Shown: positions 1,773 to 59,815 of the stretch, piece after piece
How the letters are laid out: each line of letters opens with the position of its first letter
Numbering within the stretch: position 1 is the stretch's first letter
NCBI GenBank assembly: GCA_022760735.1
Contig: JAKELU010000010.1
Span: 13,630-77,629 of the forward strand
DNA length: 64,000 nt
Origin: Firmicutes bacterium FC7
GTDB taxonomy: Bacteria; Bacillota; Clostridia; Tissierellales; Tissierellaceae
Direction of reading: 5' to 3'
The notes under the pieces: model-generated
What the model saw: only the letters and a program-made list of their open reading frames with translations
Told to the model about the DNA's origin: nothing
Databases searched by the model: none
Position numbers and translations under genes: made by a program

Positions 1773-3149
1773 CTAAATAATTTTGTAATTAACTACTAAA
1801 ATTCTTTTAGTATCATTAGTCACCTTATATAAATCATTGGTAGCATATCCCATGATCCAAATGATATTTTTATCGTCTACCAATAAAGGAATTCTATTTC
1901 TTTCTTCCTTAGGTATCTTTTTATCTATAAAGTAATCTTTAACTTTTTTAGTTCCCTTCATTCCAAAAGGAGTAAATTTATCACCATTTTTTCTATTTCT
2001 AATTTTTAAACTTCCACAAACTTTATCAAAATCAAATACCCTATAGCGCTTATCTTTTATCCAATTATTTTCATTTGAATAAACGGACAGATTTATATAA
2101 ACCCCAATATCTTGGAATATATTTTCACCTAGTTCTAATACGTGTTCAAAGTCTCTTATTTCCTCCCTGAAATTCCTTTCTATTATAAGATCATCATAAT
2201 TTGTTCTGCCAACAATATCATGTGGAAGATTAATCTGCTTGCCCGTATTGTTGGGTGTAAACAATTCTGTTAACGATGTTATATGGCTTTCACTTATGCC
2301 TTGTAAACTTTCAGAAATTTCATCAATACATTTCCTAATTATTCTTTGCTTCATGCATTGATTTTCTTTGTAAAAAAGCCTTCCATCTAGAATTATACTA
2401 TGTTTAGACTTACTTTTCACTATTAATTTAAATTTTTCCTCCGTTAAATACTCAAGGTACTCACTGTCAATTCTTGAGTTCCTTGATAATCTCCATAGAG
2501 TATCAATAATGTTTGGATTAAAATTATCTTGTATGTACGGGATTAATTCAAGTCTTACCTTATTTCGACTATATAAAGGTAAGAGATTTGTTTTATCTAA
2601 TACAGTATCTATGTCATTTTCATCTATATATCTTTCAATTTCATCCCTGGAAACATTTAAAAGTGGCCTTATTATATCTCCTGATATAAAATCCATCCCC
2701 TTTAAACCATCTAAACCAGTTCCTCTCATTATTCTAAAGAGAATAGTCTCAGCCTGGTCATTCTTGTTATGAGCTACTGCAATCTTTCCTCCGCCCTTAT
2801 CTTTAAGAATGCTTCTAAAAAACCCATATCTTAACTCCCGTCCTGCTTCCTCAGAGGTAATTCCCTTTTCCTTAGCATAAGCATCCATATCCACGTCTAT
2901 TGTATAATAGGGTAAACTTAATTCCTTAGTCTTAATTCTTACAAAATCTTGGTCAGCTTTTGCTTCATCCCCTCTTACACCATGATTCACATGAGCTACA
3001 TAGAGGTTGAACTGAAGTTCATTCCTTAATGCTAGTAAGGAATATAGCAAAGCCATGGAATCTGGACCTCCAGATACACCCACAACTATATTCTCATCTC
3101 TTTTAATTAAGTTATACCTAATAATATTATCTCTTACTATTTTTAACAT
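1773..3149 (-). CDS. tilS: tRNA(Ile)-lysidine synthetase
   Basis: Converts C34 of the CAU-anticodon isoleucine tRNA to lysidine so that it reads AUA codons; essential in most bacteria. The N-type ATP pyrophosphatase loop SGGPDS is at residues 26-31. A middle substrate-binding domain follows, and the C-terminal TilS domain shows the LKIRNRKNGDKFTPFGM stretch. The 458-residue length is normal for the family. Co-directional with hpt at a 10-base spacing, so probably one transcript with hpt and ftsH. Confidence 0.96.
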   Translation of the reverse strand: MLKIVRDNIIRYNLIKRDENIVVGVSGGPDSMALLYSLLALRNELQFNLYVAHVNHGVRGDEAKADQDFVRIKTKELSLPYYTIDVDMDAYAKEKGITSEEAGRELRYGFFRSILKDKGGGKIAVAHNKNDQAETILFRIMRGTGLDGLKGMDFISGDIIRPLLNVSRDEIERYIDENDIDTVLDKTNLLPLYSRNKVRLELIPYIQDNFNPNIIDTLWRLSRNSRIDSEYLEYLTEEKFKLIVKSKSKHSIILDGRLFYKENQCMKQRIIRKCIDEISESLQGISESHITSLTELFTPNNTGKQINLPHDIVGRTNYDDLIIERNFREEIRDFEHVLELGENIFQDIGVYINLSVYSNENNWIKDKRYRVFDFDKVCGSLKIRNRKNGDKFTPFGMKGTKKVKDYFIDKKIPKEERNRIPLLVDDKNIIWIMGYATNDLYKVTNDTKRILVVNYKII

Positions 3150-3215
3150 AATCTCACCTATTATCTAATATACCCTATAATAAGATACCCTTCCAGTGAA
3201 ATTTTACAAAATCAT

Positions 3216-3261
3216 ACCCGAGATTCTTCGTCAGCTGTAAATCTTCTATGAAATCTCGGGT
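3216..3261. terminator. Hairpin between spoIIE and tilS
   Basis: Ten-base arms ACCCGAGATT (3216-3225) and AATCTCGGGT (3252-3261) enclose a 26-base loop. The plus strand continues with a short T-rich run; the minus strand, which is the transcribed one, has only a weak T run. It may slow or end spoIIE transcription before tilS. It shares GAGRTTCTTCG with a hairpin near 23.0 kb. Confidence 0.5.
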
Positions 3262-3300
3262 TTTAATTATTAGTTGTGCATTTTGAACTGTAAATTATTA

Positions 3301-5637
3301 TTAATTATTGTTTTTCCAAACTTTTGTGACAAGTACTGTCATATCATCTTTTATTTCATTCCCGCTTGATATTTTAGCTATATGCAATATCTCGTCAGCT
3401 ATTGTTTGTGGATTCTGTGCATCTAGTCCAGCTATAACTTTCTTCATCCATTTCTCTGGATCTTCATTTTCATAACTACATTCAAGTACACCATCTGTCA
3501 TCATAATAATCATGTCTCCATCTTCAATACTCTCTTCGTAAATATTAAAATCTACATCTTTTAATATTCCTATTGGCAAGGACATGGAGTTGATTACCTT
3601 AACATCCTCGCCGCGCTTAATAAATGTTGGACATGCCCCCGATTTAATAACTTGAAGTTTCCCCTTATATAAATCAATGAAAGATATATCTAGAGTTGTA
3701 AACATCTCATCCTTAGATTTGGTTCTTAAAACATTGTTAATAGTCTTTATTGCCATTTCCTTATCGGTATTAATTTCCATCATCTTTTCTAAAAGCTCGA
3801 TCGCAATCATACTTTCAATATTAGCCTTTCTACCTGTTCCCATACCATCGCTTAGTGCAGAGTAGGATATATTTTCTATTTCTCCGTAAGTATAGCTATC
3901 ACCTGAAATTCCATTCCTAGAATTTGCCTCCTCGCTTACCTTAGTTAAGGCCCCATATCTATTACATCTTATTAATTTAAATCTATTAGTTTTTTCTATA
4001 GAACCAAAATTATAATCTGGGGCTACCTTGTATCCCAATGAGTTTGAAACAATTCTTGTTACTCGTTCAATCTTATCCATTGTATTATTTGAATGGAATT
4101 CAATATATATCTCAATATTTTCTTCTGGCAGCTGAGCGAAGATTACTTCTTTAACGTCAATTTTTCTATCCTTAATCTCTTTTTCAAGCAATTCTTCAAG
4201 TTCTTCATTAAATGTTGCGTTCTTATAAACTTCAATATTTATGTCATTAACTAACTTACCTAAACCTTCAAGTTGTTCTACTAGAACAAGCTTCTGTTCA
4301 TTAATTTTATTAATTACTTCTTCTCTTTCCTTGTATCTTTTGTAGATATTCTTAATTGTTACAGTTAAACTATCAACATCTTCACACTTTTCAAGTAACG
4401 AATTAATCAACTTTTCCTTATCTTCCACTTCTGATTCTAGTACACCAACGGTTGTAAATAATGAATAATAAGTCTCGCTCTTTTCCTTTCCCCAACAATT
4501 ATTAAAGCTTTTACAAGACTGGCACATATTTACCTTTACATCATCAACTATTGTGTAAATTTGTGAGCTAGAGAATACATCATCACTCTCCATGGTATTT
4601 TTAAAAGTCTTTGCAATTGATTCTAGTAGATCTGATGTATGCGCTAATTTTCTGCTAGCTAATTCGAACTTTCTGTTCTCAATTTCCTTCTTTACTTTTG
4701 ATTTTGCTTTAAATACATTATCAATGACTTTCTCAACTTTATTATATGATAATAAAAATATAATTGCTGAAATTAACAACTCTTCGTAGTTTAAAAAGCT
4801 TGTACCTAGTCCATTCACATAATAGCTTATTATTCCATTCCCTAATACAAAACCAATTACAGCGCCACTTTTACCTAATTCCTTAAATAGACCTGTAAGA
4901 ATTCCACCTACTGCAAATATAGCAATTATAAAAGGCATTTCAACATTTGATATATAAGCTACCATTCCTAAAATAACTCCAGTGATCCCACCAACATATA
5001 TTCCTTGATTGTATCCTAGGGTTACAATTGCTAAAATACATACAATATTTTTTAATGAGGCTCCCATTATGCTTATTTCACTAAAACCAGCTAAAACTAA
5101 TGCAAAGGTTATAAAAGTACATACCATCTTTTCATGTGAAACTTCTATGCCTGTAAATTCTTCTATAGGAAAACTAAAAGAAAATATATATGTCATAGTA
5201 AACACAAGAATCCCTTCAAATAGGATTAGGATCAAGTCATAGATCGCTGCTGTCTCCGAAAAATTCATACCTATTAGTCTTATAGCTGTAAATATACATC
5301 CAACTATAATACATGTAGCAATTAAGGAATATTTATTACTCTCTTTGTTTCTTGTAAAGAATCCATATATAAGTAGAGATGCAATTATGTAACTAATACT
5401 TCCAAATCCGCAGGCACTAAAGGTTCCTAGCATAGCTGCAGCGATTACTCCCTTATTTATGCTCTTAAAGATGGTATAAGCTCCTATGAAAGCTATTCCA
5501 AAGGGATATAAGCGATCCAATATATTCACTCTTCCTAATAAGAAGCTTATTATAACTAATAGTACAGTATGCATTTCAATCTTTAGGTCAACTTTTCTCC
5601 TTGAAACTACCGTTTCCATTCTTGCCACTTTCATCAC
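3301..5637 (-). CDS. spoIIE: Stage II sporulation protein E, PP2C-type phosphatase
   Basis: Membrane serine phosphatase that dephosphorylates the anti-anti-sigma factor SpoIIAA to release sigma-F in the forespore and also works at the polar septum. About 300 N-terminal residues are a run of hydrophobic segments. A central region carries the CxxCxxxxxCW cysteine cluster. The C-terminal third is the PPM phosphatase domain with ALSDGMGTGRKA and MMTDGVLE metal-binding stretches. Length 778 is close to the usual 800+. The start is ambiguous: GTG at 5637 and ATG at 5634 sit too close to the AGAGGGG ribosome site, and ATG at 5619 is possible. It is followed by tilS, as in Bacillus with yabS/yabT missing. 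Confidence 0.96.
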   Translation of the reverse strand: MMKVARMETVVSRRKVDLKIEMHTVLLVIISFLLGRVNILDRLYPFGIAFIGAYTIFKSINKGVIAAAMLGTFSACGFGSISYIIASLLIYGFFTRNKESNKYSLIATCIIVGCIFTAIRLIGMNFSETAAIYDLILILFEGILVFTMTYIFSFSFPIEEFTGIEVSHEKMVCTFITFALVLAGFSEISIMGASLKNIVCILAIVTLGYNQGIYVGGITGVILGMVAYISNVEMPFIIAIFAVGGILTGLFKELGKSGAVIGFVLGNGIISYYVNGLGTSFLNYEELLISAIIFLLSYNKVEKVIDNVFKAKSKVKKEIENRKFELASRKLAHTSDLLESIAKTFKNTMESDDVFSSSQIYTIVDDVKVNMCQSCKSFNNCWGKEKSETYYSLFTTVGVLESEVEDKEKLINSLLEKCEDVDSLTVTIKNIYKRYKEREEVINKINEQKLVLVEQLEGLGKLVNDINIEVYKNATFNEELEELLEKEIKDRKIDVKEVIFAQLPEENIEIYIEFHSNNTMDKIERVTRIVSNSLGYKVAPDYNFGSIEKTNRFKLIRCNRYGALTKVSEEANSRNGISGDSYTYGEIENISYSALSDGMGTGRKANIESMIAIELLEKMMEINTDKEMAIKTINNVLRTKSKDEMFTTLDISFIDLYKGKLQVIKSGACPTFIKRGEDVKVINSMSLPIGILKDVDFNIYEESIEDGDMIIMMTDGVLECSYENEDPEKWMKKVIAGLDAQNPQTIADEILHIAKISSGNEIKDDMTVLVTKVWKNNN

Positions 5638-5658
5638 CCCTCTAATTTCTTGTCTAAA

Positions 5659-5691
5659 ATACTAACAAAATCAGAAAATATTTTTTGTCAA
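5659..5691 (-). promoter_or_regulatory. Putative spoIIE promoter with 21-base spacer
   Basis: On the minus strand TTGACA (5691-5686) is followed by 21 bases and TAGTAT (5664-5659), ending about 20 bases before the gene. In Bacillus the Spo0A-activated sigma-A promoters of spoIIE and spoIIG are known for this same over-long spacing. No clean Spo0A box (TGTCGAA) is seen; TGTCGGA near 5867 is one mismatch away but distant. Confidence 0.5.
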
Positions 5692-5925
5692 TACAAGGGT
5701 TTTATTTTATGATTTTTCGGACAATTAAATGGCTATTTTCCTATAACCTTAAGATTTTTATATGATGTTAGTTTAAATTTTAAAAAACCATACATTAACA
5801 GCAAAAGTATTGATTTGACTACATTACATCATTTAAGCATCGAAAAAACCTTTAAATGTAATTATCTGTCGGATTTTTAATGATTTTCAAAAAAAATAAT
5901 TAAATAAGAATAACAATTTTTGGTA
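5692..5925. other. Non-coding spacer upstream of spoIIE
   Basis: Together with the spoIIE promoter and the yabR terminator this makes a gene-free stretch of 314 bases. It is strongly AT-rich and I find no open frame with a ribosome site. Bacillus carries tRNA genes at this place between yabR and spoIIE; none is recognisable here. Confidence 0.6.
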
Positions 5926-5953
5926 TTAAAAAAAACCGGTAAAATCCGGTTTT
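5926..5953 (-). terminator. Intrinsic terminator after the S1-domain gene
   Basis: AAAACCGG (5932-5939) and CCGGTTTT (5946-5953) form a hairpin with a six-base loop; on the minus strand it runs into about nine Ts. It overlaps the stop codon of the S1-domain gene. Confidence 0.85.
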
Positions 5954-6371
5954 AATAATCCATGTTACTTGCTCGTTTTCCTCGCATTCCACTGTTTCTT
6001 CTTGAGTCACGAGTCTTTATTTGATCCATTCTTTCATTGCTTTCCTTAAGGAACTTGCTTAACTTATCTTCAAAAGACATGTATTTTTGCATATCATCAG
6101 GTTTATTCCATTCAATTTCAGCAGGTCTATTAGTTTTTGGCTTGGCCTGTCTTATGGAAAGGCTTATCTTGCCTTCTTTTGAAACTGAAAGTACCTTTAC
6201 TTTTACCTTTTGATCCTTCTTTAAATAATCTGCTACCTTCTCCACATAATCATGTGATATTTCTGAGATATGGACTAGACCACTTTTTCCTTCAGGTAGT
6301 TGAATAAAAGCACCAAAATTAGTAATACCAGTTACAGTGCCTTCAACTATTTCTCCAACAGCTACGGGCAT
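5952..6371 (-). CDS. yabR: S1 RNA-binding domain protein (YabR-like)
   Basis: Small RNA-binding protein of 139 residues. Residues 1-73 form one S1 (OB-fold) domain starting PVAVGEIVEGTVTGITNFGAF, with LVHISEIS and KVKVLSV typical of S1 repeats. The rest is a charged, Arg/Lys-rich tail ending in GMRGKRASNMDY. It sits between divIC and spoIIE as in Bacillus and other spore formers. Function is not well defined; binding of ribosomes or mRNA is inferred from the domain. Confidence 0.88.
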   Translation of the reverse strand: MPVAVGEIVEGTVTGITNFGAFIQLPEGKSGLVHISEISHDYVEKVADYLKKDQKVKVKVLSVSKEGKISLSIRQAKPKTNRPAEIEWNKPDDMQKYMSFEDKLSKFLKESNERMDQIKTRDSRRNSGMRGKRASNMDY

Positions 6372-13389: not shown

Positions 13390-14331
13390 TTAATCTAAAT
13401 ATTTTTCTACCTTAGCATCGTCTCTTAATTTCTGAATCTTATTTAAATATTGTTCTTCCTTAAGAAGGTTCTTAATATCATCAGAAAGTTCTTCATAGGC
13501 ATCTCTTTTCTCATTTAACTGAATTATGTGGTATCCTACTTCAGTCTTAACTAGCTCACTGATTTCTCCTTCTTCTAAAGCAAAAGCTGCATCTTCAAAC
13601 TCTGGAATCATTTGACCCTTTCCAAAGTAACCTAAATCTCCTCCATGAGCAGCTGATACACTATCAATTGATTTAAGTGTTGCAAGGGTAGCAAAGTCTT
13701 CCCCATCCTTTAATCTTTCTAAAATTTCTCTTCCTTCTTCTTCAGTTGCAACTAGAATGTGACTAGCTCTAATTACAATTAGATTATCCTTATTTTCATC
13801 ATAGTATTCTTTTGCCTCATCATCTGCAATCTCGATACCTTTTAAAAATTCTTCCTTGTGTTTAGATACTAATAGTTCTTTTCTCATATTGGTAATAAAA
13901 AATTCTTCTGATATCTCAGTACTTTTTAGAAATTCATCATATTTTTCCCTGCCACCCATTCCTTCTATATAACTTTCCATTAGGTCATCTATTTCTACAT
14001 CTGTAATTGAAATATTCATGGATTCTGCCTCTTTAGCTATTATCTTCTCCATAATTATTTTTTCCAGTACACTTTCCTTTATAGTATCATCAAGAGACTT
14101 TCCATCTGCTCCAACCTGATCTAATGCATCTTCTCCTAATTCTCTTTCATAGAGCTTTCTAAACACATTATAATCCTCTTGAAATTCCTCTTCAGTAATG
14201 CCTTCTCCATTTACTTTAGCAACCAAGCCCTCAACATTTTTCTCTGCACAACCAACTACTCCAACAGCTAATATCATTATTGTCAAAATAAATGACAACT
14301 TCCTTAATATAAGTTTATTCAAATAAAACAT
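13390..14331 (-). CDS. Peptidylprolyl isomerase, PrsA/SurA-like lipoprotein
   Basis: Extracytoplasmic foldase of 313 residues. An N-terminal signal with lipobox VVGC (Cys at about 28) predicts lipid anchoring. A SurA-N-like helical region follows (about 30-180), then a parvulin domain at about 185-285 with IRASHILVATEEEG, HGGDLGYFGKGQMIPEFEDAAFALEEGE and GYHIIQL. PrsA-like proteins often sit after mfd in Clostridia. It lies 67 bases downstream of mfd, separated by a hairpin. Confidence 0.93.
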   Translation of the reverse strand: MFYLNKLILRKLSFILTIMILAVGVVGCAEKNVEGLVAKVNGEGITEEEFQEDYNVFRKLYERELGEDALDQVGADGKSLDDTIKESVLEKIIMEKIIAKEAESMNISITDVEIDDLMESYIEGMGGREKYDEFLKSTEISEEFFITNMRKELLVSKHKEEFLKGIEIADDEAKEYYDENKDNLIVIRASHILVATEEEGREILERLKDGEDFATLATLKSIDSVSAAHGGDLGYFGKGQMIPEFEDAAFALEEGEISELVKTEVGYHIIQLNEKRDAYEELSDDIKNLLKEEQYLNKIQKLRDDAKVEKYLD

Positions 14332-52490: not shown

Positions 52491-53258
52491 ATGATAATAA
52501 CAGTAACCAATACAAATGATAGCGGTCCTGGCTCACTCCGTGATGCTGTAAACACAGCAAGTTCAGGTGATACTATCATTTTCGATATAGATGGAACAAT
52601 AAATTTATCTGTCCCAATTCTAATTATAGATAAGTCATTAACAATATTAGGTCCAGGTCCTAGAATTGTAGGAAGTTTTGACCGTATATTTAATATATCG
52701 GGTTCAAATCATGTAGTAACTATAGCATATTTAGAGCTTATAAATGGCTATGATCAAACAGGTGAAGGTGGCGGAGCTATTATTAACGATGAAAGCACAT
52801 TAAATATATTCAATTGCTTCTTTGCTTATAATACATCTGCTGGTGGAGGAGCTATAGCGAATAGAAACTCAGGTACACTAAATATTGACAGAAGTATATT
52901 TTTCAACAATTCTGCTACCAGAGGTGGAGCAATACTAAATTTAAATGGTACACTTAATATTTCAAACAGCTCATTTTATAACAATATAGCACCACTAGGC
53001 GATGGTGGAGCAATCGAAAATTCTGATGGAACAATTATTATAAAAAACAATTTGTTCTATGGTAATAGTGCAAGCCAAAATGGTGGAGGGATAATAACTA
53101 CCGGCACCGCTACATTAATTTGTAATATTTTTTACTTTAACACTGCAACAAGTGGTGGAGCCATAGCTAATGTTCCCCCTGGGTCTATCCAACTTGAAAA
53201 CAACACTTTAATTAGAAATAGTATTCCAGCAATATCTGGAATCTTTAATGATATATAA
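52491..53258 (+). CDS. Leaderless right-handed beta-helix protein with GGAI repeats
   Basis: 255 residues. The N-terminal TVTNTNDSGPGSLRDAVNTA is the usual cap of secreted beta-helix proteins. It is followed by about six repeats of roughly 25 residues, each with G-G-A/G-I and an SxFxxNxA-type turn, as in polymorphic outer-membrane-protein repeats. No signal peptide is present: the cap motif starts at residue 3. Strong AAGGAGG ribosome site. A spore-surface place would explain the missing leader, but this is inference from its neighbours. Confidence 0.82.
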   Translation: MIITVTNTNDSGPGSLRDAVNTASSGDTIIFDIDGTINLSVPILIIDKSLTILGPGPRIVGSFDRIFNISGSNHVVTIAYLELINGYDQTGEGGGAIINDESTLNIFNCFFAYNTSAGGGAIANRNSGTLNIDRSIFFNNSATRGGAILNLNGTLNISNSSFYNNIAPLGDGGAIENSDGTIIIKNNLFYGNSASQNGGGIITTGTATLICNIFYFNTATSGGAIANVPPGSIQLENNTLIRNSIPAISGIFNDI

Positions 53259-54991: not shown

Positions 54992-55112
54992 AAAAAATTC
55001 CCCCTAAGCGTTAATTCACACCTCATATATAAAATTATATACCAATATTACCCACAAAACTAGGATTAATCTCTAATCTGGACAAAAGTATACATACTTA
55101 AAGAATAAAAAT

Positions 55113-55136
55113 TAGACCAACAAAATTGTTGGTCTA
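55113..55136 (-). terminator. Terminator after the CotF-like gene
   Basis: TAGACCAACAA (55113-55123) pairs with TTGTTGGTCTA (55126-55136) over two bases; T-rich on the minus strand. Confidence 0.85.
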
Positions 55137-55154
55137 AATACCTAATTAAATATT

Positions 55155-55646
55155 TTATTTTACATTATACATTCCTTTGCTTTCCATGTACTTAAATATT
55201 CCTTCTCCGTGTTGCTGTTCTTCTTTTTGTATGTGATTGAGTATATTTCTTAAATTTGTATCCCTACACTCAAATATTGCAGTATCGTAAGTGCTAGATA
55301 CATATTTCTCAGTCATTAGTAAATCAGAGCAAAGTTTGGCATCATTACTATTAGCCATATTACTATTTCCAGTTTGTGAACTCATTTGTTGATTTTGTTG
55401 GTTTTGCTGGTTCTGATTCTTCTGCCCTTGTTGCTGATTCATATTTGGAAGTTGCCCAGATAAAATTTGATTAATTGTATTATAGTGCTCTCTTTCTTGT
55501 TGTGCATATGTGTTAAGTAAGTTCTTTAACTCAGGACACTGTGCTTGATTAGCATAATTAGTATACTTTTCGATACATATTTCTTCATGACTTTTTTGAT
55601 CTTCTAAAAGCATTCTTTCTTTTTGTGATAAATTTATCTTTGTCAT
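55155..55646 (-). CDS. CotF-like spore coat protein
   Basis: 163 residues in two ferritin-like halves (MLLEDQKSHEEICIEKYTNY and LCSDLLMTEKYVSSTYDTAI), the Coat-F layout, joined by a Gln/Asn-rich low-complexity linker at about 67-97 (MNQQQGQKNQNQQNQQNQQM). Each half carries ExxH-like residues at helix ends. AGGAGGTG ribosome site. Directly downstream of the cysteine-rich cluster, supporting a spore-surface setting. Confidence 0.9.
   Translation of the reverse strand: MTKINLSQKERMLLEDQKSHEEICIEKYTNYANQAQCPELKNLLNTYAQQEREHYNTINQILSGQLPNMNQQQGQKNQNQQNQQNQQMSSQTGNSNMANSNDAKLCSDLLMTEKYVSSTYDTAIFECRDTNLRNILNHIQKEEQQHGEGIFKYMESKGMYNVK
55380..55445 (-). repeat. Gln/Asn codon low-complexity tract
   Basis: Imperfect runs of CAA/AAT-type codons within the CotF-like gene encode the NQQ-rich linker; prone to length change by slippage. 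Confidence 0.7.
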
Positions 55647-55730: not shown

Positions 55731-56750
55731 CTAGACACATAGTTCTTGAGCAAGTGCATTTATAGCCGAATCTTCAATTATTAATTCCTCTAAAGCTCTT
55801 AGACCAACCACTCTTAAGCCGACAAGCACCACTGTATATATGCAACATTTTTTATTGCAGTGAATATCATCGCAGTAATTAATTGAGAAGGAATTTCTTG
55901 TTCTATAACTACTGCCGTTAGCACCCCCAGCTGTACTTAAATCTCTTACAAATTTATATTCCCTTAAAACTTCATCTACTCCATCGCACTTTCTTCTCAA
56001 TTCAAAAATTAGTTGTATGCCTGAAGTAAAATCTTCATCTGATGCTTCAGCACTTTCTGATACTTCAATCATTGTTGAAAAATCAATTTTTACAATAGGT
56101 TTATTTAGACATTCAACATCTAAAGTTATCCTAGCCAAAATATAAGGATTTGACAGTTCAAAAGCTGGTGATATATTAGCTAGAGCTACTCTTTGAACCT
56201 CCCTACCACAAGCTAAATTAAAATCCCTATGACTATTAGGAGGCCAATTGCAATTATCTATATCCTGAACAATTGCCCTAATAAAAGAGTCTTCAATAAT
56301 TAACTCATTTGATGGTTCTACAGGACCAGTAAAATTTACCTCAATACTTATAAGCTCTACCGTATATATACAGCACTCCATATTACACAATAAATCTTTA
56401 TCACAATAGGTAAAAGTAAATGAATCCCTAACGTTATACCCAGGAGATTGATTATCGCCTTCTCTTACATCTACTATATATTGATAACTCTTTAAAGTTT
56501 CTGCTACTCCATTACAATCTCTTCTTAACTCTAAATTAAATATGGCTCCCACTGTATTAACATCATCAGGACTGATGACTTGTATAATAGTTGAAAAATC
56601 AATTTTTATAAGGGGTTCCTTAAATGGTTTAGCATCAACAGCAACCCTTGCCAATACCACAGGATCATCATTAAAATCTAGACTTCTAGTATCTACTTCT
56701 CTAATTCTTCTAACTTCCTTGCCACAGATTAAGAAAGTATCCTTATTCAT
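55731..56750 (-). CDS. Two-domain cysteine-rich protein (DUF4489-like), cluster member 6
   Basis: 339 residues made of two copies of the cluster's domain. Domain A (about 1-170) has LICGKEVRRIREVDT, VVLARVAVDAKPFKEPLIKI and YCDKDLLCNMECCIYTVEL. Domain B (about 172-339) has LACGREVQRVALANIS, YILARITLDVECLNKPIVKI and YCDDIHCNKKCCIYTVVL. Domain A is most like member 2 and domain B most like member 3, in the same order as those genes. No signal peptide. It ends in IEDSAINALAQELCV. Probably a spore or cell-surface structural protein; function unproven. Confidence 0.85.
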   Translation of the reverse strand: MNKDTFLICGKEVRRIREVDTRSLDFNDDPVVLARVAVDAKPFKEPLIKIDFSTIIQVISPDDVNTVGAIFNLELRRDCNGVAETLKSYQYIVDVREGDNQSPGYNVRDSFTFTYCDKDLLCNMECCIYTVELISIEVNFTGPVEPSNELIIEDSFIRAIVQDIDNCNWPPNSHRDFNLACGREVQRVALANISPAFELSNPYILARITLDVECLNKPIVKIDFSTMIEVSESAEASDEDFTSGIQLIFELRRKCDGVDEVLREYKFVRDLSTAGGANGSSYRTRNSFSINYCDDIHCNKKCCIYTVVLVGLRVVGLRALEELIIEDSAINALAQELCV

Positions 56751-56778
56751 TTATTTCCCTCCCTTGCCATTCATTTCA

Positions 56779-57276
56779 CTAACATAGCTCTTGGACAATT
56801 GCACTAATTGACGAATCTTCTATTACTAATTCATCTAATTGTCCACCTCCCCCAATCATTTCAAAACCTGAAAACTCCACTGAATATTTGCAACATTTAT
56901 TTTTACAATTAAAAACTTCATCACAGAGCATAAAGCTAAAGGAATCCCTTGTATCATAACTGTCACTAATGGAAGCAAAGAAAAACCCTCTTGCATATTG
57001 ATATTCTTTAATTACTTCCTCTCTACCATTACATAATCGTTTTACCCTAAAATTTAATACTATTCCTTCCTTATCTGTATCACCATTAACGCCATCTATA
57101 ACTTGAATATAAGTTGTAAAATCAAGGCTTACGACAAGTTTTTTAAAACTACTTGTATCTATTTCAATTCTTGCTAATTCCTTTGGAAAATCTAAAACTA
57201 GAAAAAACTTTTCTCTCACTCTTTTTACTTCTTTCCCACAAACCAAAATAGGACTTTCTACAAATTTGCATATCAT
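56779..57276 (-). CDS. Cysteine-rich protein (DUF4489-like), cluster member 5
   Basis: 165 residues with the full domain: LVCGKEVKRVREKF, ELARIEIDTSSFKKLVVSLD, VKRLCNGREEVIKEYQYARG, SFSFMLCDEVFNCKNKCCKY and the end LVIEDSSISAIVQELC. The core is nearest to member 1 (shared VSLDF, RxCNGRE, CCxYxVEF). Start overlaps the stop of member 4 by ATGA, so translation is coupled. No export signal. Confidence 0.84.
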   Translation of the reverse strand: MICKFVESPILVCGKEVKRVREKFFLVLDFPKELARIEIDTSSFKKLVVSLDFTTYIQVIDGVNGDTDKEGIVLNFRVKRLCNGREEVIKEYQYARGFFFASISDSYDTRDSFSFMLCDEVFNCKNKCCKYSVEFSGFEMIGGGGQLDELVIEDSSISAIVQELC

Positions 57277-57866
57277 ATTAGAGCCTCCTTTTTCACTTGA
57301 ACAAGTGCATTTATAGCCGAATCACTAATGACTAACCTTTCTAAAGGATCAGCTAAAACTTGCACTTCATATAATTCTACTGAATAGGTACAACAACCAT
57401 TCTTGCATAAGAATTCATCATCACAGAAGGTAAAACAAGATGAATCCTTAGTTTCATAAAGAAGGACATTTTCTCCACTAGGCCTAAATATTCTTTTATA
57501 TTCATAGGTTTTTAAAGTGTATGTCTCACCATTACAAGTCCTATTTAACCTAAACCTTAAAATTATTCCATCATCTACAAGTGATGCAGAGTCCCTTATC
57601 TCTATCAGGGTTGAAAAATCTATTTTTACTAATGGCTTAAAAATTGGAGATATATCTACAGAAACTCTTGCAAGAACCTTTGGCAATTGGTTATTAAACT
57701 GATCTGTCACTAATTCTTTCCTTACACCACTTACTTCTCTTCCACATGCTAAGTCTACTTCTTTAAATTTTATAGGTTTTGGCTTTGATTTTGGTCTATA
57801 ACACCTTAAATACTCTTTTGTACAATAAATCGAATTCCCCTTACCTTGTATTAGAATGCTTTCCAT
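57273..57866 (-). CDS. Cysteine-rich protein (DUF4489-like) with N-terminal extension, member 4
   Basis: 197 residues. An N-terminal extension (MESILIQGKGNSIYC and a basic RCYRPKSKPKPIKF stretch) precedes the domain: DLACGREVSGVRKEL, KVLARVSVDISPIFKPLVKI, NRTCNGETYTLKTYEY, CFTFCDDEFLCKNGCCTYSV. It lacks the terminal Cys of the others and ends ALVQVKKEALI. The extension matches that of member 1. Its start lies within the 3' end of member 3 (26-base overlap). Confidence 0.84.
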   Translation of the reverse strand: MESILIQGKGNSIYCTKEYLRCYRPKSKPKPIKFKEVDLACGREVSGVRKELVTDQFNNQLPKVLARVSVDISPIFKPLVKIDFSTLIEIRDSASLVDDGIILRFRLNRTCNGETYTLKTYEYKRIFRPSGENVLLYETKDSSCFTFCDDEFLCKNGCCTYSVELYEVQVLADPLERLVISDSAINALVQVKKEALI

Positions 57867-58383
57867 ATAAATAACTCCTTTCGCATAATCCTTTAGCTAA
57901 GGCATTGATCGCTGAGTCTTCAACAAGTAATTGATCTATTCTACCAGGTGCAATTAATCTGACCTTTACAAGTTGTACTGTATATACGCAGCATGCATTA
58001 CTACAGAATGAATCATCACAGTAGGAAAAGGCCAAAGAATTTCTTATATTGTAACTTGCTCCATCATTTAACTCCACATATCTTATAACCTTATATTCCT
58101 TTAAAATTTGTTCTACTCCATCACAGTTCTTTTTTAATTCAAAACTTAATTCTATTCCACTAGTTTGAGCCTCATCACCTGTAGCTGTATCGAGTACTTG
58201 AATTATTGTTGAAAAATCAATTGTTACTAAAGGTTTGCATAAATACTCTGTATCTACTATAAGTCTTGCTAAAGTAACCGGATTTAATATATCAGATGTT
58301 ATGTTAGTTAGATTTACTCTCCCAACTTCTCTACCGCAAAATAAAATAGCATCCTTTTCATTACACACATCATAATTTTTCAT
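57841..58383 (-). CDS. Cysteine-rich protein (DUF4489-like), cluster member 3
   Basis: 180 residues: ILFCGREVGRVNLTNITSD, VTLARLIVDTEYLCKPLVTI, LKKNCDGVEQILKEYKVIR, FSYCDDSFCSNACCVYTVQL and LLVEDSAINALAKGLC. After the usual final Cys the frame continues for 13 residues (ERSYLYGKHSNTR) through the ribosome site and start of member 4, apparently by loss of the stop codon seen at this place in its paralogues. No signal peptide. Confidence 0.84.
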   Translation of the reverse strand: MKNYDVCNEKDAILFCGREVGRVNLTNITSDILNPVTLARLIVDTEYLCKPLVTIDFSTIIQVLDTATGDEAQTSGIELSFELKKNCDGVEQILKEYKVIRYVELNDGASYNIRNSLAFSYCDDSFCSNACCVYTVQLVKVRLIAPGRIDQLLVEDSAINALAKGLCERSYLYGKHSNTR

Positions 58384-58397
58384 ACAATCCTTCCTTT

Positions 58398-58889
58398 CTA
58401 GTCACATCTTCCCTGAGCTATTGCTCTAATTGAAGAATCTTCTATTATAATGGTATTTTCATTTGGCTCTCCACCCAAGACATCTATTCTTAACAATTCT
58501 ACTGTATAAATACAGCATTTTTTCTTACATAATATTTCATTATCACAGAAGGTAAACTCAAAGGTATCCCTTAGGTCAAATGAAGGTGATTCAGGTTCTA
58601 GGTTACTAATATTTATCACATATTGATACTCCTTTAATGTTTCTATTTCTCCATCACAGTTTCTTCTCAATTCAAAATCTAATACAGTTCCTACAGTTGC
58701 TCCTACAGGAGTAAATACCTGTATAAAAGTAGAAAAGTCAATTTTCACAAGAGGCTTTTTTAGAAAACTTGTGTCTAAAACTACTCTTGCTAATACTACT
58801 GGATTTGAAGTAAAATCTAAGTCTCCAGTATTTACCTCCCTAATTTTCTTTACCTCTCTACCGCAAGCTAAAACTATACCCTTATCCAT
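58398..58889 (-). CDS. Cysteine-rich protein (DUF4489-like), cluster member 2
   Basis: 163 residues, the simplest form of the domain: IVLACGREVKKIREVNTGDL, VVLARVVLDTSFLKKPLVKI, LRRNCDGEIETLKEYQYVI, FTFCDNEILCKKKCCIYTVE and IIIEDSSIRAIAQGRCD. The cluster's conserved cysteines are those of CGRE, C(N/D)G, (Y/F)CD, C...CC and the C-terminus. GGAGG lies upstream of the ATG. No signal peptide. Confidence 0.85.
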   Translation of the reverse strand: MDKGIVLACGREVKKIREVNTGDLDFTSNPVVLARVVLDTSFLKKPLVKIDFSTFIQVFTPVGATVGTVLDFELRRNCDGEIETLKEYQYVINISNLEPESPSFDLRDTFEFTFCDNEILCKKKCCIYTVELLRIDVLGGEPNENTIIIEDSSIRAIAQGRCD

Positions 58890-58919
58890 AATCTATTACC
58901 TCCGCTCCAACTATCCTCA

Positions 58920-59531
58920 CTAACATAGCTCTTGAACAATTGCCCTCATAAATGAATCATCTATATCTACCTCTCTTATTACATCAACCCATTGACCGGA
59001 TGCAAAAAGCCTAAAGCCTATGAATTCTACAACATATTCGCAACATTTACATTTACAATTTAAAGTGTCACAATACATAATTTTGAAAGAATCCCTTAAC
59101 TCATAACTAGCTCCATCACCAGCTAGAATAAATCTAGTAAATTTGTAATCTTTGAGAACATATTCCCTTCCATTGCAAATTCTTTTTAGTCTAAAATCTA
59201 GTACAATTCCTATAACATTATCTAAATCAGAACTCAAAAACCGTATAAAGGTAGAAAAATCAAGACTTACAACAGGATTTTTAAAACCATCTAAATCTAC
59301 TTCAACTCTTGCTAAAATAACCGGCTCTTCAAAGATGACAATAGGTTCTATAGGAAATTCAACAGTAGCTTTAATATCACTCTCTCTAAACCTATTTACT
59401 TCTCTTCCGCAGACTAAAGTAACTTCATTAGTAATTGGTTTCTTTTGATTACATTTATCTTTTTCTTTATCTCTAAAACACTTTTTTAAATCAATTGAAT
59501 TACTTCTACCTGATATAAGAATATCGTTCAT
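58920..59531 (-). CDS. Cysteine-rich protein (DUF4489-like) with N-terminal extension, member 1
   Basis: 203 residues; first gene of the cluster. N-terminal extension MNDILISGRSNSIDLKKCFR plus a charged linker, then the domain: VTLVCGREVNRFRESDI, VILARVEVDLDGFKNPVVSL, LKRICNGREYVLKDYKFTRF, IMYCDTLNCKCKCCEYVVEF, and VDIDDSFMRAIVQELC. AAAAGGGG precedes the ATG. CATAAAAT on the minus strand at 59588-59581 resembles a sigma-E -10 element (one mismatch), but no clear -35 goes with it. Confidence 0.84.
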   Translation of the reverse strand: MNDILISGRSNSIDLKKCFRDKEKDKCNQKKPITNEVTLVCGREVNRFRESDIKATVEFPIEPIVIFEEPVILARVEVDLDGFKNPVVSLDFSTFIRFLSSDLDNVIGIVLDFRLKRICNGREYVLKDYKFTRFILAGDGASYELRDSFKIMYCDTLNCKCKCCEYVVEFIGFRLFASGQWVDVIREVDIDDSFMRAIVQELC

Positions 59532-59634
59532 AGCAAAAACCCCTTTTATTTATTTGATAGAATATTCCTTGTCCTGATACATTTTATGTAAGGAAGCTAC
59601 ATTAGGTTCTCTATAAGTGTTTTAGAACAAATAT

Positions 59635-59677
59635 AAAAAGGCATAACTCCTACAAAAATTATTGAAGGAGTTATGCC
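59635..59677 (-). terminator. Terminator after hom
   Basis: GGCATAACTCCT (59640-59651) and AGGAGTTATGCC (59666-59677) form a 12-base stem with a T-rich minus-strand tail. A second imperfect hairpin (GCAGCAATTGT with ACAAACTGCTGC) lies at 59690-59722. The rest of the spacer down to 59532 holds the promoter region of the cysteine-rich cluster. Confidence 0.85.
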
Positions 59678-59815
59678 TAAAATTAAGAAGCAGCAATTGT
59701 ACACTACGAACAAACTGCTGCCTTTTAATCTTCTATATATATATATTAATTCAACTATGAGTTAATATAGTTATACCCATTTTTTACACTATTATTACTT
59801 TTTTACTTTAAATTC

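Follow-up and report, generated by a model that had tools for sequence, protein, structure and literature searches.

Ena1 and Ena3, members of the DUF3992 family, are leaderless all-beta proteins that serve as subunits of spore-surface appendages. A further leaderless all-beta appendage subunit of the spore surface, F-ENA, belongs to the DUF4183 family (PMC11952670), and, as far as the available portions of the respective papers go, the exosporium of Clostridium has CsxA as its lattice protein (PMC7333573, PMC4942563), that of C. sporogenes contains CsxB, a protein of 151 residues with 10 cysteines that was found in a gel band with BclA (PMC4942563), the only two cysteines of the Bacillus protein BxpB lie in its N-terminal arm, with bonding to ExsY suggested (PMC10470788), and Clostridia are described as having no homologue of ExsF, as BxpB is also called (PMC7333573). 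Here we describe a cluster of six genes, encoding seven domains of the DUF4489 family, in a 64,000-nucleotide stretch of contig JAKELU010000010.1 from Firmicutes bacterium FC7 (positions 13,630 to 77,629), hereafter the window. We consider it somewhat better than an even bet, with a probability of about 0.57, that DUF4489 proteins are leaderless spore-surface proteins of the late mother cell, the TNF-like trimers of which are cross-linked by cysteines into a CsxA-type exosporium.

The cluster consists of six consecutive minus-strand open reading frames (ORFs), running from 59531 to 55731, that together contain seven copies of one domain; the first-pass annotation of this DNA had described the same layout, and both the ORFs and a profile search bear it out. 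The family name that it proposed holds as well: in a Pfam search, all six proteins scored 47-127 bits against the PF14879 (DUF4489) gathering cut-off of 27, with 6/6 proteins and 7/7 domains above that threshold, and a profile search of the whole genome (2.5 Mb) recovered exactly these seven DUF4489 domains and none elsewhere. The other domains of the cluster are 39-53% identical to the first one, far above chance, and the motifs C-G-x-E, LAR...D, D-F-x-T, C-x-G, C-D...C...C-C-x-Y-x-V and D-S...A are invariant across all seven. Thus, the main motifs of the pattern originally given stand, with the exception of the KPxVxIDFST block, which is not kept in the protein encoded at 56779-57276, where the sequence reads KKLVVSLDFTT. 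Likewise, of the six or seven cysteines described as invariant or almost so, six are invariant in the window domains, and the C-terminal one is frequent, not universal. Across the wider family (137 distinct domains), conservation is 90-100% for four of those six cysteines and 86-87% for the other two; in terms of model columns, C4 never varies where it is present, and C105, C72, C114, C113 and C110 are kept in 86-99% of the domains (in this tally, and in those of domain number and arms below, identical sequences were counted once and sequences cut at contig ends were kept). Neither a signal peptide nor a membrane span was detected in the six proteins, in agreement with the initial description, the Kyte-Doolittle maxima over 19 residues (0.9-1.9, and at most 0.7 at the N-termini) being too low. 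NCBIfam profiles gave only weak matches, far under the cut-off, and DUF4489 was the sole Pfam family reported for the six proteins, which match neither DUF3992 at E<=1 nor DUF4183, a profile that the true DUF4183 proteins of this genome do match. Elsewhere in the family, a subfamily of 287-312 amino acids (aa; L073, L074, L075, L078, L149, L152) has an N-terminal extension of 140-165 residues, for example MKATRIDFDEMWEKHFDNYRGW, and a DUF4489 domain in which several of the cysteines typical of the family are missing.

The distribution of DUF4489 ties the family to sporulation, as had been supposed. The domain was found in 11/398 genomes of the phylum, 16/291 of the class and 22/120 relatives, which, with the genome under study present in all three sets, amounts to 47 distinct genomes, and SpoIVA (PF09547), a morphogenetic protein of the spore coat, exceeds its cut-off in 47/47 of these (22/22 relatives, 16/16 class genomes and 10/10 others), compared with a background of 78/120 relatives and 207/291 class genomes. 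The chance of complete co-occurrence, uncorrected for common descent, is p 2e-5 among the relatives and p 0.004 in the class. Named carriers include Clostridium simiarum, C. thermopalmarium, C. tetanomorphum, C. sulfidigenes, C. magnum, C. bovifaecis and Syntrophomonas wolfei. A scan of genome contigs with a single protein turned up no relatives, and plasmid searches with a window protein and with a CsxA-like protein gave no match. One genome, MAG.222 (a Bacillota bacterium; L065-L067, L079-L083, L132-L139), carries a large expansion of at least 12 DUF4489 genes, mostly of two domains, in which the first domains and the second domains form two separate clades.

The expression of these genes appears to be set, in part of the family, by sigma-K. 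In C. difficile, according to the accessible part of PMC3789822, sigma-K promoters are marked by AC at -35 and by a -10 element such as CATATAAT, and sigma-E promoters by ATA at -35. The pattern AC-N15..18-CATAnnAT occurs within 200 nucleotides (nt) upstream of 28/65 DUF4489 genes, compared with 25/396 other genes of the same loci (p 4e-13), and 11 of these 25 control matches belong to CsxA-like neighbour genes, which are discussed below; it is seen in 14 of 29 genera, with mean per-genus fractions of 0.40 and 0.07 (Wilcoxon p 0.003). In this strict test, any gap under 60 nt led to exclusion, which left the 65 genes, and control genes shorter than 120 aa were left out, as they were in the looser test; a looser form of the pattern, applied to the 69 DUF4489 genes that remained when those less than 60 nt behind a same-strand gene were excluded, matched 31/69 as against 41/396. 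Patterns with wrong spacings (4/65 and 2/65) or a scrambled -10 element (3/65) were not enriched at DUF4489 genes, CATAnnAT alone was (35/65 vs 78/396), and a sigma-A-like pattern was rarer there than in the controls (1/65 vs 50/396). The offset between the elements peaks at 16-17 nt, where the controls have a smaller peak too. A sigma-E-type promoter (ATA with CATAnnAT), which was not clearly enriched (6/65 vs 15/396, p 0.06), and two other sigma-E-type forms (1/69 vs 6/396, p 0.68; 5/69 vs 5/396, p 0.009) were considered and set aside. The cluster itself is preceded by a sigma-K-like match, ACCTAATGTAGCTTCCTTACATAAAAT, at 59581..59607 on the minus strand, 76 nt 5' of its first start codon, a match that is not significant alone and is significant as a trait of the family. 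In the same genome, the csxA-like and F-Anchor genes share this promoter pattern; the genes for the F-ENA pilin, the collagen-like protein and Coat_F do not. Judged from promoter sequence, then, the mother-cell expression envisaged in the first-pass annotation gains support, with many exceptions. A sigma-K-like motif also lies upstream of two iron/manganese superoxide dismutase genes found near DUF4489 genes (L056:1700-2323, L064:1616-2260).

Clustering of the genes in 57 regions (56 loci and the window) yielded one recurrent pair of neighbours, namely, a cysteine-bearing protein of 212-294 aa, present in 13/57 regions, and a divergent partner of about 410-560 aa, present in 12/57; none of the three such pairs that were scanned matched a Pfam family. 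We infer that the smaller protein is CsxA-like, an indirect identification, made with CsxA itself outside the comparison, on three grounds. First, the FC7 genome encodes a 992-aa protein that has a homologous region alongside three DUF4183 and two DUF11 stretches, and the gene of this protein adjoins a DUF4183 pilin gene; F-Anchor-3 of C. aceticum has such an architecture, and the region is called CsxA-like in the available section of PMC11952670. Second, csxA, too, is accompanied by a divergent partner, which is conserved, and by a cysteine-rich ORF close by and, third, the N-terminus MSINFNKFVP resembles MAINSKDFIP, which we deduced from a csxA primer (both from the accessible part of PMC7333573). 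The CsxA-like gene is present in 19/22 DUF4489-bearing relatives and lies no more than 3 kb from DUF4489 in 12/22, representing eight genera, with the same linkage in three further genomes (L060, L061, L067); the nominal binomial probability of 5e-21 is inflated by shared descent of gene order. Two arrangements recur, with DUF4489 either directly downstream of the CsxA-like gene or beside the divergent partner. This recurrent linkage is what argues for the spore-surface location that had been proposed for the cluster. A search for the csxA 5' sequence in 206 genomes of one family found none.

The same observations bear on the possibility, which we regard as unlikely, that DUF4489 is a protein of the inner or outer coat rather than of the exosporium, expressed like other sigma-K coat genes. 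A sigma-K-like promoter cannot tell coat from exosporium, and most DUF4489 regions are away from the CsxA-like gene, which is near in the 13/57 regions given above and in 0/25 named loci, where its partner was not found either (flanks of up to 6 kb, several cut at contig ends). Moreover, a Coat_F (CotF-like) gene (PF07875, E 2.6e-24) at 55155..55646 on the minus strand adjoins the cluster. The first-pass annotation was correct in identifying this neighbour, but not in treating it as context: no homologue lies in any of the 25 named loci or in the 56 regions besides the window, and G674, a genome of the same genus without DUF4489, encodes a Coat_F protein that is 81-83% identical, with 48 nt of conserved upstream sequence, in a different place. 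Since Coat_F is absent by the other DUF4489 loci examined and placed elsewhere in G674, its adjacency in the window is probably incidental, and the gene was rejected as functional context; the linkage that does recur, where there is any, is to the CsxA-like gene.

The predicted fold is of the kind seen in TNF/C1q-like heads. An AlphaFold2 model of the protein encoded at 58398..58889 on the minus strand (163 aa, type B of the nomenclature introduced below), built from 45 aligned rows, reached a predicted local distance difference test score (pLDDT) of 89.1 and a predicted template modelling score (pTM) of 0.87 and is all beta except for one short helix. The DUF4489 domain is predicted to be a TNF/C1q-like jelly roll; jelly-roll stacking was among the things that the first-pass annotation had suggested looking for. 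Foldseek matched the model to TNF-family ligands, lectins, and phage fibre and capsid domains. VIA-align matched it to a viral VP2 domain (Z 10.5), Chlamydia Pgp3 (9.9), BxpB (8d02; 119 residues matched at 3.0 A, Z 9.8), two TNF-like lectins, PLTL and BC2L-C (9.4-9.8), ExsF (9h3d, 8.9) and ExsFA (7r5i, 8.8; range for ExsF/ExsFA 8.6-8.9), and also to many TNF-family ligands, with TNF-like entries at Z 8-10. In a viral fold library, collagen-like proteins came out on top, with otherwise general TNF/C1q-like and fibre matches. These matches are indicative of fold class, not of kinship. Ena structures are absent among the 50 VIA-align matches listed, which does not exclude an Ena-type fold. The model of the two-domain protein is weak (pLDDT 70, pTM 0.53), and the arrangement of its domains is unreadable from it.

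Such a fold would also suit a spore-surface adhesin or lectin, with heads that mainly bind sugars or other ligands instead of building a layer. PLTL and BC2L-C rank with the best fold matches, the viral list is headed by collagen-like proteins, and the paralogues, with 39-53% identity to the first domain, could have different ligands. This scenario is compatible with a place in the exosporium; as a rival to it, we hold it to be quite unlikely, given that six conserved cysteines and the cysteine-rich arms point to structural cross-linking.

N-terminal arms of 20 or more residues are present in 102/110 DUF4489 proteins, and 97 of these 102 arms hold cysteine, which makes up 8.0% of arm residues compared with 1.9% in all ORFs longer than 150 aa of the 57 regions. 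For this tally, proteins without a start of their own were dropped and the first possible start codon was taken, so that the arms may be overlong, and MAG.222, with its much-expanded DUF4489, contributes a good part of the proteins. In the window, arms of 37 residues precede the domains of the first gene (59421..59531, minus strand) and the fourth (57756..57866, minus strand), each arm with two cysteines. The arms of these two proteins share the start ILI.G..NSI, a loose form of which, IIIKSNGNSI, occurs in the type A gene of G680 (L121); a docking peptide is possible.

The arms are also part of what could be said for the proposal of the first-pass annotation, a spore appendage fibre linked by disulfides after the fashion of Bacillus Ena, with jelly rolls stacked via N-terminal connectors. 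The tandem paralogues are leaderless, cysteine-rich and predicted to be beta-sandwiches, cysteine-bearing arms are found in most members of the family, and tandem expansion has occurred repeatedly, up to at least 12 matches in one genome. Nevertheless, in four of the window's six proteins the domain is preceded by just 5-12 residues, the genome already has an F-ENA pilin and anchor, no DUF3992 match was obtained, and the fold matches listed are TNF-like trimeric proteins and similar sandwiches, so that we consider such a fibre distinctly improbable. As the best analogue, Ena gives way to the TNF/C1q-like heads, including BxpB/ExsF, which the predicted fold resembles.

The presence of the cysteines covaries in two pairs, C72-C114 (phi 0.69) and C110-C113 (phi 0.73), in the 107 of 137 rows that have letters in all chosen model columns, uncorrected for descent; because of this covariation, two disulfides are suggested, with C4 and C105 left over. 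A cytoplasmic metal-binding protein, with the dense conserved cysteine block and the CG motif as ligands of zinc or a different metal, is very improbable, since the cysteines covary as disulfides would, the family is restricted to spore-formers and it is repeatedly amplified in tandem.

The phylogeny of the 137 domains gives the cluster an internal order. The seven window domains and three genes of G680, a genome of the same family, form one clade (support 99/97), with the G680 counterparts in the same gene order. These counterparts define three types on the minus strand: A, the first gene of the cluster (59531->58920, that is, 58920..59531; 203 aa; 55% identical to its counterpart), B (58889->58398; 69%), and C (58383->57841, that is, 57841..58383; 180 aa; 62%), with support of 100/97 for each of the window/G680 pairs A and C. 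The fourth gene (57866->57273; 197 aa), the 5' end of which overlaps the end of the type C gene, and the fifth (57276->56779; 165 aa, nearly armless) group with A, at 93/53 and 100/72, respectively, both weak by one measure; the first gene failed the composition check of the tree. In the last gene (55731..56750, minus strand; 339 aa), the B genes are the tree neighbours of domain 1 (100/99) and the C genes those of domain 2 (100/66), so that the protein is probably a fused B-C copy. The cluster is best read as A, B, C, A', A'', B-C, that is, an A-B-C trio and a second set in which B and C are fused. TNF/C1q-like heads usually form trimers. Chains of DUF4489 have at most three domains in 113 distinct proteins (91 with one, 19 with two and 3 with three, some cut at contig ends), and two distant genomes have three-domain chains (L082 and L114, of which L114 is truncated by the end of its contig) that correspond domain by domain; together with the A/B/C sets, chains of one to three domains are suggestive of a unit of three.

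In the scenario that we favour, DUF4489 proteins would be synthesized by the mother cell at a late stage, with sigma-K in control in many lineages. Each domain would fold into a TNF/C1q-like jelly roll, which most likely trimerises and is stiffened by the conserved disulfides, and the cysteine-rich N-terminal arm that is usual in the family would cross-link the head to the cysteine-rich CsxA-type lattice of the exosporium. The heads would then decorate or tie together this layer, a role that in Bacillus falls to BxpB/ExsF on the ExsY lattice. In FC7, the heads would come in three types, A, B and C, of which only type A, along with one A-like copy, would have retained the long arm.

Several observations weigh against this scenario. 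The sigma-K-like motif is missing from more than half of the DUF4489 genes, including all those of Syntrophomonas and allied loci (L048-L053, L055), and of 28 genes in the named loci (L140-L156) no more than 3 have the strict pattern upstream, none of these in Syntrophomonas, in an unfiltered count in which several genes are the second of tandem pairs and several loci come from genomes already counted. The window holds 8 such matches with 16-17 nt spacing, where 7.15 are expected, so that the site of the cluster itself is no better than chance. Apart from the lack of CsxA-like linkage in the named loci, co-occurrence with the CsxA-like gene among SpoIVA-positive relatives is not significant (19/22 vs 57/78, p 0.08), the DUF4489 cluster and the csxA-like gene of FC7 are on different contigs, and all counts other than the per-genus promoter test are uncorrected for common descent. 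Three genomes of the same genus carry SpoIVA without DUF4489, which is therefore an accessory part of sporulation. The long arm is found on only the first and fourth of the window proteins, with the other four being short before the domain, as noted. The Foldseek TM-scores by query length are 0.2-0.5 among the 50 matches listed, the TNF/C1q fold is common, lectins, Pgp3 and the viral capsid domain score level with BxpB, and the window profile retrieved no PDB chain at E<=10, although BxpB is in the PDB as 8d02. Finally, neither DUF4489 nor PF14879 is named in the open literature searched, a body of 5.39 million papers that most subscription papers and all bioRxiv preprints lie outside of.

A more specific version of the exosporium scenario is tentative and, on balance, rather unlikely. 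DUF4489 might be the clostridial counterpart of the BxpB/ExsF anchor, through convergence or through descent too old for sequence to reveal, with disulfide-armed trimers in the CsxA lattice docking collagen-like and F-ENA appendages. In the lineage of FC7, A, B and C would join in one heterotrimer, resembling the complement C1q head, in which A alone carries a long cysteine arm, and a second set would be made of the A-like copies and the fused B-C chain; elsewhere, whole trimers would be made as three-domain chains.

The surroundings of the cluster and the other spore-surface genes of FC7 complete the picture. Between the homoserine dehydrogenase gene and the cluster lies a hairpin followed by a T run (59639..59678, minus strand), read by eye and absent from the program's hairpin scan, the loop limit of which is 8; it probably splits the two into separate transcription units. 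The Coat_F gene, a downstream neighbour only, is followed on its 3' side by a terminator-like hairpin from the hairpin scan (55112..55137, minus strand). Farther along, near spore genes, a 255-aa protein with Chlam_PMP-type repeats and no evident signal peptide is encoded at 52491-53258 on the plus strand and is possibly a beta-helix. On other contigs of the genome, the csxA-like gene (2284-2898, minus strand) and its divergent partner (2985-4091, plus strand) are found in C25 (L163), neither with a Pfam match and with no DUF4489 there; the pair adjoins genes resembling Rrf2-NifS-NifU. In C1 (L162), an F-ENA pilin gene (DUF4183; 2593-2979, plus strand) is followed by the F-Anchor-3-like gene (3141-6119, plus strand), and Firmicutes bacterium FC7 probably makes F-ENA spore appendages. 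The gene for a collagen-like protein, with an unread stretch in the repeats and a C-terminal non-collagen part, lies in C34 (L164; 3896-4795, minus strand).

Cysteine-rich spore-surface proteins are known as a kind; for the DUF4489 family, its CsxA-like link and its A/B/C organisation, we found no report in the open literature searched, and the available parts of PMC5927469, on CsA/CsB of C. sordellii, and of PMC517825 contain nothing on DUF4489. If the scenario is correct, a family without an assigned function gains a job, and the surfaces of clostridial spores a further cysteine-rich component, one that is genetically linked, in some family members, to the gene for the CsxA lattice. DUF4489 would then also be a candidate for the anchor described as missing in Clostridia, where, in the portion of PMC7333573 at hand, no ExsF homologue is recorded. 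The cluster is, moreover, a test case for how a TNF-like head passes from one gene to sets of three subunits and fused chains.

Among the known systems, the Ena1/Ena3, F-ENA and DUF4489 proteins are all leaderless and all-beta and belong to the spore surface (for DUF4489, putatively), but they are different families without Pfam cross-matches, and the F-ENA genes of FC7 are at another locus. CsxB resembles the DUF4489 domain in size and cysteine content, by its description in the accessible part of PMC4942563 alone. CsxA is likewise a cysteine-rich spore protein, and the CsxA-like genes identified here share the promoter type of DUF4489 genes and often adjoin them; however, profile-profile comparison with hhalign against the CsxA-like alignment A6, with CsxA itself outside the comparison, gave a probability of 0.2, and distant kinship of the two families was rejected. 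The C-terminal head of BclA and other TNF/C1q-like heads are of the same fold class as that predicted for DUF4489, which differs in being cysteine-rich and in having no collagen stalk. BxpB/ExsF appears to be a better analogy than Ena, although, by sequence, DUF4489 belongs to neither family. In the Bacillus cereus group, BxpB/ExsF (ExsFA) is trimeric and has a jelly roll of a size similar to that predicted for DUF4489, both have cysteines in the N-terminal arm (for BxpB, in the available part of PMC10470788), some members of the DUF4489 family have their gene linked to that of a cysteine-rich lattice protein, and, as regards anchoring of a collagen-like nap protein of the BxpB type, the FC7 genome has a collagen-like gene. 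They differ in sequence, which does not match, and DUF4489 is set apart by conserved cysteines within the head, by tandem arrays and by multi-domain forms.

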